IMG/VR virus record: IMGVR_UViG_3300009104_000093 | Coordinates: 1-28,395 of that record | Source: a virus | Reading direction: 5' to 3' (one strand) | Length of the DNA: 28,395 nucleotides | In this document: positions 10,337 to 25,495 of the stretch, piece by piece | Position numbering within the stretch: the first letter of the stretch is position 1 | Layout: every line of letters starts with the position of its first letter | Made by a program: the position numbers and the translations under genes | The notes under the pieces: model-generated | What the model saw: the letters and a program-made list of their open reading frames with translations, nothing else | The model's database searches: none | Told to the model about the DNA's origin: nothing

Positions 10337-11491
10337 TCAAATCCATTCAACACCCCCAGCATCAACCTTCCAGCCCCAAAACAATTCGGCTACTTCAGGT
10401 GGTGCTGCCTCTCCTACATATTCAAATGAATAACATTCGCGAGTATTCTGTTTCCAACCCCATTCTTCATTTCCAGGATGAGTATGAACCTTGCGGGACA
10501 CGGCTGTCTCCTTCCAGTTAGGATTATTAAATCTGTGTTTAGCAAAAGCGAAATGAGCATGACGGCTAAAGTAGCGACCGCCTCCAGCCAGAACCATTGA
10601 TGCTATGAAATCAGATAGTTGGACTCCAATACCTAATCCCTGATAATCGGGCAAAACCACAGTACGGCTCGCTCTCCAACCATTCTGAATACCACCGTTA
10701 GGGAACGGCAGGGTGCAAGATATAGCAACAGGTCTGTCTTCCCATGTCGCCACAAAGATTCGAGCAGCGGCATTCAAATCTTCAGTCAGATAGTGATGCG
10801 CTTTGAACAGGTCCCACGCCTCATATTCTGCTCGGAATACTTTGAGGTCAATTTGTGGTCTATGAAAAGACCACCCCCTGTTCTCGTTAATTATGGTTTT
10901 TCCCTCTAAAGGATTATAGACCCAATCAGCGTTCAACCATTCGAGTATATCGTCATGGCAGGAGGCTACGATAACCTTTGCTTCTGACTTACGAATAAAC
11001 TTCTGCAATGCAGATGATGCTGCCTTAGCAACATTCCTATCAACAACTGAAGTAAACTCATCTATTAGAATTACTCCACCATTGACTTGACCGTGAGCAA
11101 CTGCCGCCGCAAGGTTGGCTCTAAATTGCTCGCCGTTTGAAAGTGTGTGAAATGGTCTGCACCATGAAGGAACTGAGGAAAGGCCGACCGCCGAAAGAAT
11201 CCCTGCACTTTCTTCTGGGGTCAGACCAATGCCCCCCACAGACGAAATTATAGACTGGCCGCCTCCCCAGTCGTGCGTGTATATATCTCCAAATGTGCGA
11301 AGTAGCGTAGTCTTGCCTGCTCCAGATGGGCCATAGATACAACCTATTGCCCACTCTTCAGGAGGTCTGATATTGTTAATGATTGTGGTTCTCATTCTGT
11401 CTTCAAGGGGAATGTCGAACATCTTCTCAGCAATTGCTGTGTATTCATCGTGTTGAACATCTGTTTCTAATATGATTTGATTACTCGACAT
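10337..11491 (-). CDS. Soluble ABC ATPase fused to a GNAT acetyltransferase-like domain (COG2401-like)
   Basis: 384 residues in two domains. Residues ~20-205 are an ABC ATPase: Walker A GPSGAGKTT (54-62), signature LSNGE (117-121), Walker B VILIDE (140-145) and H-loop His179. No membrane segment or transporter partner is present. Residues ~215-345 look like a GNAT fold, with the acetyl-CoA loop in TVVLPDYQGLGIG (277-289), preceded by HHYLTEDL and ARIFVATW. The ATPase plus acetyltransferase arrangement matches the family described as COG2401. GNAT-fold proteins include phage Mu Mom, which modifies adenine in DNA, so DNA or nucleotide modification is a possible but unproven role. The ATG at 11491 has GGAGG seven bases upstream and overlaps the winged-helix gene by 11 nt. 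Confidence 0.82.
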   Translation of the reverse strand: MSSNQIILETDVQHDEYTAIAEKMFDIPLEDRMRTTIINNIRPPEEWAIGCIYGPSGAGKTTLLRTFGDIYTHDWGGGQSIISSVGGIGLTPEESAGILSAVGLSSVPSWCRPFHTLSNGEQFRANLAAAVAHGQVNGGVILIDEFTSVVDRNVAKAASSALQKFIRKSEAKVIVASCHDDILEWLNADWVYNPLEGKTIINENRGWSFHRPQIDLKVFRAEYEAWDLFKAHHYLTEDLNAAARIFVATWEDRPVAISCTLPFPNGGIQNGWRASRTVVLPDYQGLGIGVQLSDFIASMVLAGGGRYFSRHAHFAFAKHRFNNPNWKETAVSRKVHTHPGNEEWGWKQNTRECYSFEYVGEAAPPEVAELFWGWKVDAGGVEWI

Positions 11492-11717: not shown

Positions 11718-11848
11718 ATAGACCCCTCAATAGGTCGGGGGAGGAGGAACGCACACACCACCAAAGCGTCGGGCCAGTTTAGAAAAAAGGAAAGACTATC
11801 CTCCTTCAATCCCGAAAGGATTGCTGACCAACCCCCGTTGAGTTTCAT
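11714..11848 (-). CDS. Micro-protein with hydrophobic C-terminal half, 44 aa
   Basis: This frame joins the clamp gene to the winged-helix gene. Its ATG overlaps the clamp stop (ATGA) and its TGA overlaps the next ATG (ATGA). GGGAGTG lies six bases before the start. The middle and C-terminal part (LSFFLNWPDALVVCAFLLP) is hydrophobic and could be a membrane segment. A small hairpin, CAATCC and GGATTG (11807-11823), lies inside it. The exact overlap at both ends argues that it is coding. Function unknown. Confidence 0.55.
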   Translation of the reverse strand: MKLNGGWSAILSGLKEDSLSFFLNWPDALVVCAFLLPRPIEGSI

Positions 11849-12693
11849 TCGAGCACTCCCGCTTGGAATACCCATGAGTTACCAGGCAGGACCATTAGCA
11901 TTCTAATGCCTTGTCCTTCTGGTCTGAAATCTATGAAGTTAAGTTTGACTTCACCTGAGAATGGCTTTACTATTGTTTCGAGCCCTCCCTCAAAGTCCCA
12001 CTCCCAATGCTGGTCGTAGCCCGTATTCTTTGTTGAGATACTTTCGTCATCAGCAAAGGAAAGTAATTGCGATATTGTTCTGCCCTTGAGTTCGCCTCCG
12101 ACTTCAACAAAGAGTCCGTCGGCATCAACCCTAAACAGGTATCGGTTAAGTTTCTGTCCGTTTATGGAGTCGCAGCGTAGTGCTTCAAAGAGTTCAACCG
12201 CCTCCACAACGAAGCGACAGAATGGCTGACGAGTTGAACCGTCGGCCATAGTGTATGAACCCTCTTCTATATTGAGCCTACCTGATAGGTCTATGGATTT
12301 CGCTTCCCACTCACCAATTGTTTCTGTTGAATGGGGGAATGCTAACCCACCTAAGTCTCCTGTTAGGCTTGTTCTCTTTGAACCTGAGCGAACACGAATC
12401 TTGTTTCCCTCAGTAAAGATATTGACTTGAGAACCATGAGCGTTTAGAACACCCATAAGTCTGTTTATGTCGGGAACACATATTGCTGCCTCACCGTCTT
12501 CACATGGAAGGGTGAATTGAGCCAAAGATGTTTTCCCATCACGAACGAGCGATGTAGTGGATATGAGCCCATCACCGCTCCTCAAGATACAAGCCGTGAC
12601 CTGCTCTTGATTCTTACCAGCGATAGTTTGCTTCCGCTGGGTGAGTTCGAGTGTCGTTCGTAGTGCGTTATTGTTTGTCGTTATTCCAGTCAT
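11845..12693 (-). CDS. Probable sliding clamp (PCNA-like)
   Basis: 282 residues. Sequence similarity to PCNA is weak by eye, but the pattern is consistent with the fold: SGDGLISTTSLVRDGKTS early, then VPDINRLMGVLNAHGSQV and an inter-domain hydrophilic stretch, and a second domain ending in GQGIRMLMVLPGNSW, like the C-terminal beta-strand of clamps. A clamp is expected because PolB and a clamp-loader small subunit are present. The frame extends to an ATG at 12711, but a TATA-like element ends at 12716, 23 nt from the ATG at 12693; GGTGG also precedes 12693. The shorter start is therefore chosen. Other beta-rich DNA-binding proteins cannot be excluded. Confidence 0.58.
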   Translation of the reverse strand: MTGITTNNNALRTTLELTQRKQTIAGKNQEQVTACILRSGDGLISTTSLVRDGKTSLAQFTLPCEDGEAAICVPDINRLMGVLNAHGSQVNIFTEGNKIRVRSGSKRTSLTGDLGGLAFPHSTETIGEWEAKSIDLSGRLNIEEGSYTMADGSTRQPFCRFVVEAVELFEALRCDSINGQKLNRYLFRVDADGLFVEVGGELKGRTISQLLSFADDESISTKNTGYDQHWEWDFEGGLETIVKPFSGEVKLNFIDFRPEGQGIRMLMVLPGNSWVFQAGVLE

Positions 12694-12715
12694 ATTTATA
12701 CCACCAATCATTGCC

Positions 12716-12727
12716 TATTAAATGTTT
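12716..12727 (-). promoter_or_regulatory. TATA-like promoter of the clamp gene
   Basis: The minus strand reads AAACATTTAATA. Its 3' end is 23 nt before the clamp ATG at 12693, which predicts a leaderless or nearly leaderless transcript. It begins at the stop codon of the 36-residue zinc protein. Confidence 0.65.
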
Positions 12728-12837
12728 CATACAGGCACGAATACCATCACACCACAGGTGCAGTTGTAATACGCCGCCTTCAAGTCTGTTTTGAAGTGTT
12801 CGAGTTCCTCTTCACACGAAGGGCATTTCAGAATCAT
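12727..12837 (-). CDS. Zinc-ribbon micro-protein, 36 aa
   Basis: A 36-residue frame with CPSC (residues 5-8) and CTC (26-28), separated by a charged stretch and followed by a hydrophobic end (VMVFVPV). This is a minimal zinc-ribbon layout. Its ATG overlaps the stop of the 52-residue membrane peptide as ATGA, and the clamp promoter starts at its own stop. It is the last of four tightly overlapping micro-genes. Function unknown. Confidence 0.68.
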   Translation of the reverse strand: MILKCPSCEEELEHFKTDLKAAYYNCTCGVMVFVPV

Positions 12838-12992
12838 AGCAACATCTCCGCAAAAACCATCCCTGTAAATCCAGCAAGAAAGCAAAGAGTAATTTTGAGT
12901 AAGAAAATCAATTCTTGTATCTCTGTATCATATACCTTTGGGAGAGGAGGAGGTAGGGCTATATTCACCTTTGAAGTTCCAGATTTACTCAA
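12834..12992 (-). CDS. Single-span membrane micro-protein, 52 aa
   Basis: Starts with TTG at 12992, overlapping the previous stop as TTGA. The N-terminal ~27 residues are soluble with a Pro-rich stretch (ALPPPLPK). The rest (LIFLLKITLCFLAGFTGM) is a clear membrane span. A small single-span protein next to another one (42 aa) could form a holin-like or membrane-anchoring pair, but nothing identifies it. Confidence 0.62.
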   Translation of the reverse strand: MSKSGTSKVNIALPPPLPKVYDTEIQELIFLLKITLCFLAGFTGMVFAEMLL

Positions 12993-13117
12993 GCCATCCA
13001 CCCCATGACCTTTACGAGGATAGCAACACCAACGAGCAGATTAACGAACCCAACAACAGTTCTTGTTAGTTGCAGACAACCAACATGATGAGTTGCCCAG
13101 CCTTCAATATCATTCAC
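12989..13117 (-). CDS. Single-span membrane micro-protein, 42 aa
   Basis: Starts with GTG at 13117, eight bases before the end of the previous gene. The N-terminus (MNDIEGWATHHVGCLQL) is soluble. Residues ~20-38 (TVVGFVNLLVGVAILVKVM) make a membrane span. Its TGA overlaps the TTG start of the next membrane peptide. Unknown function. Confidence 0.58.
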   Translation of the reverse strand: MNDIEGWATHHVGCLQLTRTVVGFVNLLVGVAILVKVMGWMA

Positions 13118-13274
13118 CAATCCCAATCACTCCAGTAAGATTAACTGTTGCGTTGCAAATAGAGCAACGACCAAACACAGCCATTTCTTCTCCTATGGAG
13201 GAGCCTCTTTGTCGAGTGTAATACCATTCGTGATAGGCGAAATCTGTGCCTATACCACAGTCTTTGATAGACAA
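13110..13274 (-). CDS. CxxC micro-protein, 54 aa
   Basis: A 54-residue frame directly after the RecA-fold ATPase gene. The proposed TTG start at 13274 has GGTGAG three bases upstream; no ATG lies before residue 31, so the start is uncertain. It contains an aromatic-rich segment (FAYHEWYYTRQRG) and CSIC (37-40) with another Cys at position 6. The frame overlaps the next GTG-started gene by 8 nt. Function unknown. Confidence 0.52.
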   Translation of the reverse strand: MSIKDCGIGTDFAYHEWYYTRQRGSSIGEEMAVFGRCSICNATVNLTGVIGIGE

Positions 13275-13278
13275 GGGC

Positions 13279-14232
13279 TCACCACTCAAGCATGGGCAAA
13301 CCAGACCACTTGACTTTGCCGCCCTTCACATTCAGTACTGTGTGTTCCGTTCCGAGATGCTCCATGTTCTTACCCTTCATTTCCTCGATGATGCCGCGTA
13401 TTTCCCACTCGCCATCCTTGAGGGACTTATCCGCTTGAACACCAGCCGCCTGGTCTGCCTTATTCATGTATCGGGTTAGGAATACCTGCGAAGTCATAAT
13501 TCGCTGAGTTCCATCAACCCAGTCAGGCCTTGAACCGATAGTCATTAGAACCTTACCTCCAGTTCCTGAGTCGACATAGTTTCGTATGTCCTTCAGGTGG
13601 AAGGTGAAGAATCCGTATTGCAGGGGAAGCGAGTGCATCCTATTGATTATGTCGCGGAACATCTGATTTCGGAATCTCCATTCTGCTTGATTAAATCTAT
13701 CTCCATCCTCAACATTGATTTTGTTCTTTGAGCGATTTTGTAGCATCCAGTTCATAGAGAACTCACACCACTTCATAAAGGTTGAGCCACCATCAAAGAT
13801 GAAACCTGCATGGTCGTCAGGGTTTGTCTTTATGTCTTCAGCCAGTAAGTTAGCGAAGCGACCCACCTTATCAATAACAGCGTGCCATTTGACTGTGTTA
13901 TCTTCATTGAATAGTGATTCATCTGCCTCATCATAGATGGGGATAACTTGAATGTTCTCATCACCAGAAAAGTTATGATGAACAGTTGATGCCGCAGAAC
14001 TATCGAAGTCAAATATAGTAATGAGTCCTTCGGGCTTGTTCTGTCGAATCAAATCAACAGCCAATCCGGTCTTTGCAGTATTCTCACGACCCACTAAAGC
14101 CATGCGAACAGGCACTACGGTTGGTGCTTGCTTACGCTTCTCAAAGAGGGAGCGGTAATACTCCTTGCCGTATTTTGGCTCGTCAGAAATCGCATCGGAG
14201 GCTTTCGCCCCCCATGTCTTCGCTTTACTCAC
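13279..14232 (-). CDS. RecA-fold ATPase, Sak4/RadA-like recombinase
   Basis: 317 residues. A RecA-type core is visible: Walker A region ALVGRENTAKTG (K54/T55; Ala instead of Gly before Lys), TIFDFDSSA (72-80) as the strand after it, Walker B GFIFDGGSTF (~143-152), and a later TFHLKDIR strand. This is the layout of the phage AAA_24/Sak4 family, which promotes single-strand annealing or strand exchange together with an SSB. The next gene upstream is a probable SSB, which supports that pairing. The start is GTG at 14232, overlapping the SSB-like stop as GTGA. Full RadA features such as an N-terminal HhH domain are absent. Confidence 0.75.
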   Translation of the reverse strand: MSKAKTWGAKASDAISDEPKYGKEYYRSLFEKRKQAPTVVPVRMALVGRENTAKTGLAVDLIRQNKPEGLITIFDFDSSAASTVHHNFSGDENIQVIPIYDEADESLFNEDNTVKWHAVIDKVGRFANLLAEDIKTNPDDHAGFIFDGGSTFMKWCEFSMNWMLQNRSKNKINVEDGDRFNQAEWRFRNQMFRDIINRMHSLPLQYGFFTFHLKDIRNYVDSGTGGKVLMTIGSRPDWVDGTQRIMTSQVFLTRYMNKADQAAGVQADKSLKDGEWEIRGIIEEMKGKNMEHLGTEHTVLNVKGGKVKWSGLPMLEW

Positions 14233-17912: not shown

Positions 17913-18584
17913 CTACAACCACTCAACAATGCTGGTTTGTCGCTTTGCGACTCCCTTTGGCAGTTGGGCGGTATCAACGGCTCTTATCATATTCTGGACT
18001 TCGGGCGCGTGTTTAGAAAGAGTCATCCAATAGATATCTGATATTCGGAATTGGTCGGGGGGAGATGCTTCGGCAACCTTCTTAGTGGGCCAGTCCATTC
18101 TGGTTGATTTAGGCTTTACGCTGAAAGCAAATACAGCATTTGTATATGAGTCAGGTAATGTGAATATGGTTTGTGAGAGAAGTCTTGCCGACTCAATATC
18201 ATTTATGTGGTTTGTTCTGAAGAACGCCATAGTCAATGGGTGAGGCACTTCTGCTATCAAAGGCATGGTTCGCCCCCTATCACTCCAACTGTGCCATGAC
18301 TTCAACTGTCTGGTGAAGCCGACCTTGTTATCTCGCAGGTTGTTATCAATGATTACAAAGTCAGAAGATTTGGCTGTAATCTTAGGCTTCTTGCTGGTCA
18401 CGACTACTAATCTGTGAGAAATGAGTGGCTCCCAAGTAATGCAATCGGCCTCAGTAAACTTGTTAGTGTGGAGAATGTATGTGGTATCAGGTGCTGTGGG
18501 GGGGTAGGTTATCTCATTGTGCATGACTACAAAATCTCCTTGACGAAACTTCTTGTCGTCAGCAGTAAAAATTATGATTCCCAT
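17913..18584 (-). CDS. Unknown protein, 223 aa
   Basis: Not recognised. The sequence alternates beta-strands and helices: VVVTSKK, DFVIIDNNL, then TMPLIAEVPHPLTMAFF, ARLLSQTIFTLPDSYTNAVFAFSV, and a C-terminal helical part. No catalytic motif is visible. Position beside the clamp-loader operon and lack of an RFC large subunit make a loader accessory subunit conceivable, but the sequence does not show it. The ATG at 18584 has GGGGTGA four bases upstream and directly abuts the preceding stop (TAAATG). Confidence 0.8.
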   Translation of the reverse strand: MGIIIFTADDKKFRQGDFVVMHNEITYPPTAPDTTYILHTNKFTEADCITWEPLISHRLVVVTSKKPKITAKSSDFVIIDNNLRDNKVGFTRQLKSWHSWSDRGRTMPLIAEVPHPLTMAFFRTNHINDIESARLLSQTIFTLPDSYTNAVFAFSVKPKSTRMDWPTKKVAEASPPDQFRISDIYWMTLSKHAPEVQNMIRAVDTAQLPKGVAKRQTSIVEWL

Positions 18585-18767: not shown

Positions 18768-20231
18768 TTATGTTTCGATAATCAATGTATCTGTTGTTAG
18801 AACCAAACTTGATACTGATGTTGCGGCTCTTAGAGAATTAGCAACGACAGATGCTGGGTCAATAATAATTGAACTGCAAGCATCTATCCAATCTGCTACT
18901 GATATGCCAGCATTATTCGCCAATGTTTCTGCAACTGCCATAAGCCCCTTCATCATAATACCTGAACGGCATAGTGGGAGCATACTGTGGTGTATCACAC
19001 CACCACCTCTTACCACGCCACTTTGAAGAGCGGCTCTTGTAGCATTGATAGAGTCGTCAATTCGCATCTTAGTCTCCATTCCTTCTGCTTCTGTGTTAGC
19101 ACTTATGCTGATGGTCGCTACTCGGCCTTGAAGGTTGGCTATCCTATCAGCCATGACTCGCTTATCCCAATCATGTTCTGATTCCTCCATTGCTTTCCTC
19201 ATTATTGCTTCTCTCTCATTAACATCTTCGTCAGTTTGTTCGTTAAGTGGAATGAGTACTGAAGAGTTATCCCTAACGATAACACTTGCCTCGCCGGACC
19301 AATCTTCCTCAAAGTCCTTCAACCTTTCGCCCAATCCAGACATGATGTGTTTAGCACCAGCCCTACAAGCAATATCTCCTGCTATGTCTTCCTTTTGCTT
19401 GCCCTGACCTGGCAGAACGAGAACCGTAGCATCAACCTTACCCTGAACAACATTCAGCGCGAGCGTATCTAATGCTATCTTGCTGATATTACCACATATC
19501 AAAACCAATGGTAATTTCTCTTCGACTGAATATGTTAGTGCGGGAACGAGTTCTGGGAAGTCATTGATGACCTCATCAGTCACCACCACTATTGCATCTG
19601 TGTATTCGACCTCTTGTTGGTTCTTCATCAAATGTTGTGATGCTGGACCAGAAGAAATCTTCATCCCTTGAATGAAATCGAGTTGGGGGGAATCTGTTAG
19701 GCCGTCAATCATTACTATTGTTCCTGTATCTCCGACAACATTGAAAGCATCCGAGATAACCTTGCCTAACTCCTCATCATTGTTGGCTGAAATGGTAGCC
19801 ACACTCAATAGGCTATCCTCATCAACATCAACAGCCACTTCTCCTATGTGGTGCAATAGTGATAAGAGGTCATCATCTAATTCGCGTTTGAGTTTCTTTG
19901 CACTATTGCCTTCGTTGAGCAGTTGGAATGCGTGAAGACACATTGCTTCAGCCATTATGGTTGCTGTCGTAGTCCCATCACCAGATGCCTTTTGTGCTTC
20001 TTCAGCAACTTCGCGCATTAGCGACGCACCGAGTTCCTCGAATGGGTCTTCGGGTTTGATTTGTCTAACGACAGAAACTCCATCATTAACTACGAATGGT
20101 CTGCCGCTCGGGGCTTTGTATAGGACTGTGTAAGCATCAGGTCCAAGCGTTCCACGAACAGAATCAGCCACCGCTGATATGCCTTTCACCATTGCGGACC
20201 TCGCTTCATTACCCTTTAGTATTTTACTCAT
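18768..20231 (-). CDS. groEL: Group I chaperonin (GroEL-like)
   Basis: 487 residues; ATP-driven protein-folding ring. The sequence follows GroEL rather than the archaeal thermosome: NDGVSVVRQI (equivalent to GroEL Asp52), SGDGTTTAT (Asp87), GMKISSGP at the apical boundary, and RIDDSINATRAALQSGVVRGGG (Asp398). The ATPase aspartates are kept. The C-terminal equatorial part (LDP-like IIIDPASVVANSLRAATSVSSLVLTT) also aligns with GroEL. It is about 60 residues shorter than GroEL and lacks the GGM tail. The ATG at 20231 has GGTGGG six bases upstream and is preferred over the ATG at 20237. It overlaps the end of a candidate co-chaperonin gene. Confidence 0.93.
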   Translation of the reverse strand: MSKILKGNEARSAMVKGISAVADSVRGTLGPDAYTVLYKAPSGRPFVVNDGVSVVRQIKPEDPFEELGASLMREVAEEAQKASGDGTTTATIMAEAMCLHAFQLLNEGNSAKKLKRELDDDLLSLLHHIGEVAVDVDEDSLLSVATISANNDEELGKVISDAFNVVGDTGTIVMIDGLTDSPQLDFIQGMKISSGPASQHLMKNQQEVEYTDAIVVVTDEVINDFPELVPALTYSVEEKLPLVLICGNISKIALDTLALNVVQGKVDATVLVLPGQGKQKEDIAGDIACRAGAKHIMSGLGERLKDFEEDWSGEASVIVRDNSSVLIPLNEQTDEDVNEREAIMRKAMEESEHDWDKRVMADRIANLQGRVATISISANTEAEGMETKMRIDDSINATRAALQSGVVRGGGVIHHSMLPLCRSGIMMKGLMAVAETLANNAGISVADWIDACSSIIIDPASVVANSLRAATSVSSLVLTTDTLIIET

Positions 20232-20454
20232 CTTCATCCCACCCCATTACTTGCATTCTGCCTATCAGCCAGATGTTAGGTGCTACTTCTATATCAGTTT
20301 CGCTCGAACAGAAATAAATGTGTTTGTCTGTGAAGGTGTCGAGTGGGTCATCAATGACTTTCGCTCTGTATTCGCTGATGTTGGATATTAACCCATGCGA
20401 GTGGCTCGTGTTTCCAATCTCAATCAATAAGTTTCCTACTGTTGCCTTAATCAT
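20224..20454 (-). CDS. Candidate divergent GroES-like co-chaperonin, 76 aa
   Basis: 76 residues, directly before and overlapping groEL, which is the usual groES position. The order of hydrophobic strands resembles GroES and T4 gp31: IKATVGNLLIEI, a short loop ending HGLI (compare the GGI/SGLI mobile-loop tripeptide), YRAKVID, DKHIYFCSSE, then EVAPNIWLIGRMQV. It is shorter than GroES (about 97). This is by-eye reasoning and needs structure prediction. A weak TATA-like CATAATA lies 23 nt upstream of the ATG, and AGG is seven bases before it. Confidence 0.45.
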   Translation of the reverse strand: MIKATVGNLLIEIGNTSHSHGLISNISEYRAKVIDDPLDTFTDKHIYFCSSETDIEVAPNIWLIGRMQVMGWDEDE

Positions 20455-20635
20455 TCAAAACCTTCCCTAAATCTCGTATTATGAAGTTCTCCATCCAGAA
20501 CCAAAATGTTGAAGCCACATCATCTCCGTCTTTGTGTTCCAGAAAGAAGTTTTCGTTCTCATCTAATGCTTCTCTAACGAAGCGCTCGAACAGTTCTTGA
20601 AGACACTCAAATCCTTCTTCAGGAGTTGATACCAT
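20447..20635 (-). CDS. Small acidic helical protein, 62 aa
   Basis: Unknown. It is mostly helical, acidic and aromatic (LQELFERFVREALDENENFFLEH, FWFWMENFIIRDL). A longer frame begins at 20686, but that would overlap the preceding gene by 68 nt; the ATG at 20635 follows GGGGTGG by six bases and overlaps by only 17 nt. It overlaps the candidate co-chaperonin start by 8 nt, so the three genes through groEL form one unit. Confidence 0.65.
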   Translation of the reverse strand: MVSTPEEGFECLQELFERFVREALDENENFFLEHKDGDDVASTFWFWMENFIIRDLGKVLND

Positions 20636-20873
20636 CGAAGCCACCCCAGGGATTCTCAGCCAAAACATACGCTCTAAATCGTGCATATTGTGATTGAGTT
20701 AATCCATATACCTCCATTAGTGCTGTATTAGTTATTCGGAATCTTCCTACATACCAATGCAGACCATCGGGCTTTAGAGCGCACCATACGCCTTCGCCCT
20801 TCATGTCCGCAACTAATACTGGGTATTGTCTTCGGGTTATATATGTTGCTATGAGTCGCCTTTTCCTTTTCAT
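20619..20873 (-). CDS. Unknown small basic protein, 84 aa
   Basis: Begins MKRKRRLIATYITRRQYP, strongly basic, then a compact mixed domain (GVWCALKPDGLHWYVGRFRITN) and a helical end. No family recognised. The ATG overlaps the previous stop as ATGA and has GAGGAGA four bases upstream. A weak AATTATA lies 24 nt before the start, similar in position to the other promoter elements. Confidence 0.68.
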   Translation of the reverse strand: MKRKRRLIATYITRRQYPVLVADMKGEGVWCALKPDGLHWYVGRFRITNTALMEVYGLTQSQYARFRAYVLAENPWGGFDGINS

Positions 20874-21493
20874 ATTGTCTCCTCAAAATCTGCGTCTATA
20901 ATTGGTGGCCCTTCTATGAGCATCATCTCGTCTTGAATCTTATCCAGTATATTTGGGTGCTCAACCAAGTTAGCAACGAGAACTCTCATTATGTGGTCTT
21001 GTCTGCCTTGTAGTAGTAGTATTTGTGATTCGACTCCGATTTCCTTTTTGAGCGTTCCCACCAATTTCAAACAGCCCTTTAATTCACCTACGAGTCGAGT
21101 AGCCATAGCGACCCATTCAGAATCCATGCCTTGCTCATTCTTTATGTTTTCCCACTCATCAACCCATGTTAGGACTCGTTGGGCTACGCTCTCCGCCGTG
21201 TTGAGTGTGCTTATAGATTCTTGACGCATCTTCTCGACATGGACTTCTGCTTCGGGGTCAGACCCTAAGTGGTCGGTCATGTGTTGCATAACAGTCCCTA
21301 AAGGCCAGCGCAGTTTGGTTTCTAAGAAGGCTGCTGTTGATTCACCGTTCTGGTATCGCCTTTCTATATCAGTTCTTTGTGGGTGAGAACAGAATGGGCA
21401 TCCGGTATCTTCTATGACCCACAACAGGCCCTCGACCACGCGGTCATCCGTTTCATCAGCAATCCTTCTTTCAATTTCTCTCAACGAGCGCAT
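20870..21493 (-). CDS. Zinc-containing HTH DNA-binding protein, terminase small subunit-like
   Basis: 207 residues. Residues ~28-72 contain TGCPFCSHPQRTDIERRYQNG, STAAFLETKLRWPLGTVMQHM and a DHL end, a layout (CxxCxHP...IE...G.S......H..HL) seen in phage DNA-binding and terminase small-subunit proteins. A long amphipathic helix, probably a coiled coil, follows (residues ~85-165), then an acidic C-terminus. No large terminase is in the window to confirm packaging. The ATG at 21493 has GGTG six bases upstream; GTG at 21502 and ATG at 21499 are alternatives. Confidence 0.6.
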   Translation of the reverse strand: MRSLREIERRIADETDDRVVEGLLWVIEDTGCPFCSHPQRTDIERRYQNGESTAAFLETKLRWPLGTVMQHMTDHLGSDPEAEVHVEKMRQESISTLNTAESVAQRVLTWVDEWENIKNEQGMDSEWVAMATRLVGELKGCLKLVGTLKKEIGVESQILLLQGRQDHIMRVLVANLVEHPNILDKIQDEMMLIEGPPIIDADFEETI

Positions 21494-21929
21494 CTTCATC
21501 ACCTATTAGTTCCAGCAAGTCCTTTTGTAGTCTTTGGTCTGACTTTATAACTGCTCTTGCCGCTTCGACTGTATCGGCTATACCCCATTCGAACTCAGGA
21601 GAACTGATGAGTGGCATACCAGTCATATTGTATGCTTGTAGTGAAACTCCCTTATCTTTCATTATGACGAGGTATTCATCTCCCTTAGTGCTTATTGGAG
21701 AAATGAGTGGTTCTATATCATCACCCCACTGTAATTCTGATTTGAACCGGCTCATAGATTCATCTTCAAACAATGCTGATACCCAGTCAGGTATTTGGTT
21801 TTCCATAATCACCCATGAGTAAACCCAGACATCACAGGATAACCCACCATAGAAAAACTTGTTCGGGTCAGATATTGTTTCTGATATTTGTTTTGGTAGG
21901 CTATCCCAACTGGCTCTTTCCATCTTCAT
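21471..21929 (-). CDS. Unknown protein, 152 aa
   Basis: No motif recognised. The first half is mixed alpha/beta with several Trp (CDVWVYSWVIMENQIPDWV), the middle has short strands (DEYLVIMKDKGVSLQAYN), and the C-terminus is a helix (TVEAARAVIKSDQRLQKDLLELIGDED). The start at 21929 overlaps the previous stop as ATGA and is 24 nt from a TATA-like element, which supports it over the ATG at 21923. Confidence 0.75.
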   Translation of the reverse strand: MKMERASWDSLPKQISETISDPNKFFYGGLSCDVWVYSWVIMENQIPDWVSALFEDESMSRFKSELQWGDDIEPLISPISTKGDEYLVIMKDKGVSLQAYNMTGMPLISSPEFEWGIADTVEAARAVIKSDQRLQKDLLELIGDEDALVERN

Positions 21930-24980: not shown

Positions 24981-24990
24981 TATTAAAGGT
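24981..24990 (-). promoter_or_regulatory. TATA-like element upstream of the winged-helix gene
   Basis: The minus strand reads ACCTTTAATA, overlapping the stop codon of the 170-residue gene, as in other cases. Here no ATG lies 22-24 nt downstream, so the transcript would have a leader of at least 13 nt. Confidence 0.42.
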
Positions 24991-25495
24991 TGCGATGCTC
25001 AGCCAGAAGACGCTTCCACCATTCAGGAAACTTCCTACATTTACTCCAAGAGGCGTTGCTCTTTACTATAACGGAGTTCAGATAGTATAATCTATATGAC
25101 TCAATAGAGTTATTTGATTTGTATTTTTCAGGCATAACTTGTGGAAAGGCAGTAAATCCCCCCTCCCAATCTTCAAGTTTTTGAGCCTGGTAGTAGTAAT
25201 GCGACATATCTGACTCGCTTCGGTGATATGACTTAGACCAGCGAATAGAGTATTCTATGCAAATCATCTTCCCAAACTCAGCGAGCCACCAGAAGTTATC
25301 AAGACTTTCTGAGGCCCAAACAGCCCAGGGGTGATTAGGTTGTAATTTTTCAGTGTAATGAAGAGGCTTCGCTCCCCTTCTTTCCAGCGCAGAAGCCAAT
25401 AGAAAAGAGATATGGTTCGGCATCCACTTGAGGTGCTGGTCGCATAGCATATTGGCTGCTTCGGGTGGGTCAGTTGAAAGAGGATAGACTAACAC
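24983..25495 (-). CDS. Phage-type conserved hypothetical protein, 170 aa
   Basis: The pattern matches a widespread phage hypothetical family: TDPPEAANMLCDQHLKWM near the N-terminus, NHPWAVWASES (54-64), WLAEFGKMICIEYSIRW (70-86), then FPQVMPEKY and ESYRLYYLNS, ending FPEWWKR. Biochemical function of that family is unknown to me. The start is GTG at 25495, seven bases after GGGGG; no in-frame ATG occurs earlier than residue 16. A T/A-run terminator-like structure lies just upstream. Confidence 0.72.
   Translation of the reverse strand: MLVYPLSTDPPEAANMLCDQHLKWMPNHISFLLASALERRGAKPLHYTEKLQPNHPWAVWASESLDNFWWLAEFGKMICIEYSIRWSKSYHRSESDMSHYYYQAQKLEDWEGGFTAFPQVMPEKYKSNNSIESYRLYYLNSVIVKSNASWSKCRKFPEWWKRLLAEHRNL

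Follow-up and report, generated by a model that had tools for sequence, protein, structure and literature searches.

The described viruses closest to the one considered here are the magroviruses of marine Poseidoniales, for which the ICTV description lists a family B DNA polymerase (PolB), a sliding clamp, a clamp loader and a chaperonin. In the Aoguangviridae, PolB is known to be split into two genes that encode its N-terminal and C-terminal domains (PMC10768690, PMC12999244). Membrane proteins have also been connected with viral replication. For example, p1 and p16.7 of phage phi29 are proposed to anchor phage DNA replication (PMC4974454). Here, we report a family of microproteins and an arrangement of micro-genes that recurs in the replication operons of viruses; both are new, while the general kind is already known.

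Results

The analysed stretch of DNA (the window) is a virus record 28,395 bases long. Its genes encode a B-family polymerase, an AAA ATPase resembling a clamp loader, a Cpn60-type chaperonin, and PD-(D/E)XK and ERCC4 nucleases. PolB, clamp, clamp loader and chaperonin are all present, and the gene set fits magroviruses of marine Poseidoniales (PMC10768690, PMC12999244), from which we infer host and group. The locus of interest lies on the minus strand between two genes. Upstream is a Sak4/RecA-like ATPase (13279..14232; Walker A GRENTAKT), whose relatives match PHROG 124, and downstream is a sliding clamp, or polymerase processivity factor (11845..12693), which matches PHROG 947 at E 0.0095, its best relative doing so at E 1.8e-5. 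The first search with the ATPase recovered 22 relatives; none were found in genome_contigs or among the GenBank phages searched. A pattern query for the clamp in viral_contigs gave no match, although clamps are nonetheless present beside the ATPase matches. Neither the ATPase profile nor the clamp profile matched a solved structure by sequence. The closest virus, L001, has an ATPase about 85% identical to that of the window. Elsewhere in the window, weak Pfam matches suggest that 10337-11491 (minus strand) encodes an ABC-type ATPase fused to a GNAT acetyltransferase-like domain; this product is 88% identical in L001, and its gene is the most conserved of those compared between the two viruses.

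The ATPase stop (13279) is separated by 585 nt from the clamp start at 12693, which was chosen by comparison with relatives (567 nt if the clamp began at the upstream ATG at 12711). An earlier, sequence-only reading had proposed that this apparent gap hides four micro-genes, and the coordinates, codon counts, overlaps and three non-ATG starts of the four minus-strand frames that fill it are all confirmed. ORF1 (13110..13274; TTG start, 54 codons) contains C6, H15 and the pair C37xxC40 (CSIC), a possible zinc site, and overlaps ORF2 (12989..13117; GTG start, 42 codons) by the 8 nt GTGAATGA. ORF2, a putative one-span membrane microprotein, shares TTGA (4 nt) with ORF3 (12834..12992; TTG start, 52 codons), which has a predicted single span near its C-terminus. 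ORF3 in turn shares ATGA (4 nt) with ORF4 (12727..12837; ATG start, 36 codons), a probable zinc ribbon with CPSC and CTC. The two membrane spans and two Cys-pair frames of the earlier reading were thus recovered, the 19-residue Kyte-Doolittle maxima of the spans being 2.27 for ORF2 and 2.14 for ORF3.

Coupled ORFs, none shorter than 36 codons, form a chain over 548 of 589 nt, a coverage that none of 2000 dinucleotide shuffles reached. It was equalled by one of 154 antisense segments from the same genome, and for this reason the open frames by themselves are only suggestive. SD-like matches of 4-5 bases occur 4-8 nt upstream of all four starts, and about one third of random places match equally well. 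Codon use is gene-like in ORF1 and ORF2 (2 of 196 null ORFs scored as high), intermediate in ORF3 (10 of 196) and uninformative in ORF4 (26 of 196). Given the antisense result and the uneven codon-use scores, homology bears the main weight, and the four frames are not equally supported as genes.

ORF2 is almost certainly a real gene. A first search found relatives in L006 (E 4e-9) and L052 (E 7e-6), and profile searches identified the family in 32 viral contigs besides the window. Members are about 40-45 residues long with a fixed C-terminal end in the family alignment, and W7, R19, N26 and K36 are invariant. A short N-terminal segment (W...H.G.L.L.RT) is followed by one predicted span that contains the invariant Asn and by a C-terminal K.(F/M)GW, usually K(L/V)FGWI. 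The AlphaFold2 model of ORF2 is a single helix over residues 2-37 (mean pLDDT 84). The sequence-only reading had named codon-level constraint as the mark of real genes at this locus, and in the ORF2 family the evidence for it is decisive, with dN much lower than dS in moderately diverged pairs. Between L108 and L109, 13 of the 14 differing sites are third positions (dN 0, dS 0.88), as are 20 of the 24 that separate L146 and L147. These values, computed among relatives (the window has no member that close), place the family under strong purifying selection. It has no significant match in Pfam or PHROGs, no relative in genome_contigs and no credible match among GenBank phages, and the open-access literature searched, in which coverage is incomplete, makes no mention of such a family. 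By these comparisons ORF2 represents a microprotein family new to the databases searched.

ORF1 is very likely a gene as well. A relative found in the same slot of L001 (46% identity over 46 residues, E 3e-9 among 18,364 ORFs) preserves C6, H15, C37 and C40, a pattern consistent with one zinc site. For ORF4, which is probably a gene, same-slot matches were found in L003/L004/L022 (E 0.024) and L002 (E 0.84) in the database of 18,364 ORFs. These E values are better than at face value because only a handful of ORFs fill that slot, and homology is probable but unproven because Cys-rich sequences align easily. Pfam zinc-ribbon matches to ORF4 were below threshold, and no curated zinc-ribbon family reached its threshold for these Cys-pair micro-ORFs. 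That ORF3 is a gene is somewhat favoured by its position, the TTGA and ATGA overlaps and its intermediate codon use only; no homologue was found in 50 whole contigs, in viral_contigs or in any of the loci examined. One-span micro-ORFs with a similar stop-start overlap follow ORF2 in L125, L126 and L134 (27-30 codons, hydropathy 2.0-2.4) and resemble ORF3 by position, as analogues; a possible one in L105 would require a CTG start.

The slot between the ATPase and the clamp is a variable cargo site. Its size varies widely among relatives, close to zero in some and reaching about 2,900 nt at most; in many of the first 22 ATPase relatives the clamp directly follows the ATPase, and others carry different cargo. 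The slot of L001 holds the ORF1 relative and an unrelated 55-codon ORF, a single zinc-ribbon-like ORF occupies it in L002 and in L003/L004/L022, and unrelated 86-codon ORFs are found in L006 and in L019/L020. In L005 and L021 it contains a chaperonin gene with an ORF of 70 or 91 codons before it. ORF2 itself has a patchy distribution, being present in 5 of the 50 contigs that carry the ATPase (the majority of which are incomplete), and is therefore dispensable for this replisome.

Two further observations concern the genes around this slot. The chaperonins of L005 (4122-5898, with the preceding ORF) and L021 (2774-4297, likewise) are GroEL-like, and by eye the preceding ORF is possibly GroES-like. 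In the window, the chaperonin (18768-20237) and the 76-codon gene before it (to 20454) sit outside the slot; the 76-codon protein, also possibly GroES-like by eye, had no match in Pfam. The clamp region of L002 (5722-6543, a tblastn match) contains one stop codon, which could be a sequencing error or a genuine break, or could stem from a slip in the coordinates.

Across the family, ORF2 occupies varied sites, mostly among replication genes, the ATPase-clamp slot being that of the window. It lies between PolB and a nuclease in L110, L112 and L116, between the PolB halves, split near residue 503, in L108, L109, L125 and L134, and next to primase-like genes in L123 and L147. In L105, L106 and L107 it is beside a homologue of the window gene at 24983-25495, and in L006 it is between homologues of 20619-21502 and 17913-18584, with similar surroundings in L052 and L121. 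Further neighbours include PD-(D/E)XK nuclease and clamp-loader-region genes. Given this range of neighbours and the variability of the slot, the special link to the clamp suggested by the sequence-only reading is not supported. A clamp-specific tether was dropped from consideration, ORF2 being located elsewhere in the contig of L001 and in other relatives.

The immediate surroundings of ORF2 recur. In 29 of the 33 members examined, the stop codon of ORF2 shares 1 or 4 nt with the start codon that follows, and the ORF directly after ORF2 encodes, in 11 members, a 40-68-codon protein with Cys pairs (zinc-type); those of L110, L112, L116 and L118 are mutually homologous. L134 has the same order as the window, namely Cys-pair micro-ORF, ORF2, one-span ORF and Cys-pair micro-ORF, and tandem one-span ORFs are common to the window, L125, L126 and L134.

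In L108, L109, L125, L126, L134 and L145, PolB was seen to be split into two genes at the YGHTDS motif, around residues 503-514 of the window protein; the C-terminal half of L109 begins MEVVYGHTDS. Small genes, ORF2-family members among them, lie between the halves, and L109 also has an HNH-like ORF there.

In the PolB tree, WIN (the window), L001, L006 and L052 form one fully supported clade. The ORF2 tree, which is limited to 41 columns, rejects these four together with L121 (the near-core set) as a single clade (AU p 5e-5). Pairwise identities disagree in both directions: ORF2 is 88% identical between L110 and L112 versus 46% for PolB, and 61% identical between L112 and L116 versus 75% for PolB. 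This conflict can be explained either by exchange between lineages or by ancient duplication with differential loss. The synonymous sites of ORF2 are saturated between L110 and L112, and slow protein evolution within types is therefore favoured over recent transfer, which was considered and is not claimed. Around 2990-3250 of L110/L112/L116/L120, the identity of ORF2 is out of step with the flanking PolB, nuclease and primase-like genes alike (88% vs 46-56% for L110/L112; 61% vs 73-75% for L112/L116).

Discussion

The best overall explanation, which we hold tentatively, is that a marine tailed virus resembling the magroviruses carries a polycistronic cargo slot within its replication operon, and that ORF2 is an early, oligomerising membrane factor. 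Judging from the overlaps, translation of the ATPase gene, of ORF1 to ORF4 and of the clamp gene is probably coupled, with the same ribosomes re-initiating at each successive start. Asn residues can drive the association of membrane helices, and the Asn within the ORF2 span should favour self-association. We infer that ORF2 inserts into the host membrane early in infection, probably as a small oligomer, where it would either anchor viral replication functions, perhaps with the adjacent zinc-ribbon microproteins, or bind a host membrane target. Anchoring of replication is a possible but doubtful role: the location among replication genes holds for ORF2 and is consistent with a membrane anchor, yet is not specific to anchoring. 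A wider proposal, unlikely as a whole, concerns viruses of marine archaea in general: ORF2, as a widespread microprotein invisible to the databases, would build a replication site attached to the membrane together with coupled zinc-ribbon microproteins, and as a gene of ~130 bases it would move between viruses and operon positions.

It is possible, and similarly doubtful, that ORF2 acts on the host instead, for example in superinfection exclusion or against host defences, and that viruses exchange its types with one another. The surrounding micro-genes would then be unrelated small cargo, and the location among replication genes would merely set early expression. The patchy presence of ORF2 and its many insertion sites would fit such a factor, as would the conflict between its types and the polymerase tree, including the L112/L116 pair, in which PolB is the more similar of the two proteins. 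The recurring coupling with zinc micro-genes and the strong sequence constraint within types argue against it, and no known exclusion protein was matched in Pfam or PHROGs. A role other than anchoring, host-directed action or lysis is somewhat improbable.

Lysis is less likely because ORF2 sits with replication genes, and a holin-like function, in which ORF2 alone or together with ORF3 would make the host membrane permeable, is in our view quite improbable. A small, hydrophobic protein whose single span has an invariant polar residue would suit this function, tandem one-span ORFs occur in four of the viruses, archaeal viral holins are largely unidentified (PMC4456609), and two ORF2 members match holin PHROGs, at E values of only 0.11 and 0.59. 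These matches are not significant, the best coming from one member. Also against lysis are the consistent placement of ORF2 among replication-type genes, its patchy distribution and the organisation of magroviruses, whose virion genes are grouped apart in a cluster transcribed in the opposite direction (PMC10768690).

That the frames are open by chance or are left over from a decayed gene, as the one matching antisense segment, the lack of firm homologues for ORF3 and ORF4 and the many relatives without any insert might suggest, is refuted for ORF2, very unlikely for ORF1 and highly improbable overall, given that ORF1 and ORF2 are conserved as separate short proteins and the ORF2 family is under purifying selection; chance ORFs were dropped as a general explanation on the basis of homology.

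More widely, replication-operon gaps of abundant uncultured archaeal viruses can hide conserved genes below the usual annotation limits. The 42-residue ORF2, in several genome pairs better conserved than the adjoining polymerase, points to an unrecognised membrane-based infection step, and its family profile provides a direct handle for testing that step.

The window shares PolB, clamp, clamp loader and chaperonin with the magroviruses (Magrovirales, e.g., Aoguangviridae and Apasviridae), whereas micro-genes of the ORF1-ORF4 type are unmentioned in the published profiles of that group (PMC10768690, PMC12999244). ORF4, ORF1 and the ORFs that follow ORF2 are like the zinc-ribbon micro-proteins of phages and archaea in being short and in having Cys pairs, but curated family thresholds are never reached. 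ORF2 is like holins and other small viral lysis membrane proteins in being small, hydrophobic and viral, and differs in its position among replication genes and in having no significant holin family match. Compared with phi29, whose host is a bacterium, no sequence relation to ORF2 was found, and p16.7 also binds terminal protein and ssDNA, whereas the 42-residue ORF2 has no evident domain for either. The likeness lies in the fact that p1 and p16.7 are viral early membrane proteins encoded with replication functions, and in this respect they offer a model for a possible role of ORF2.
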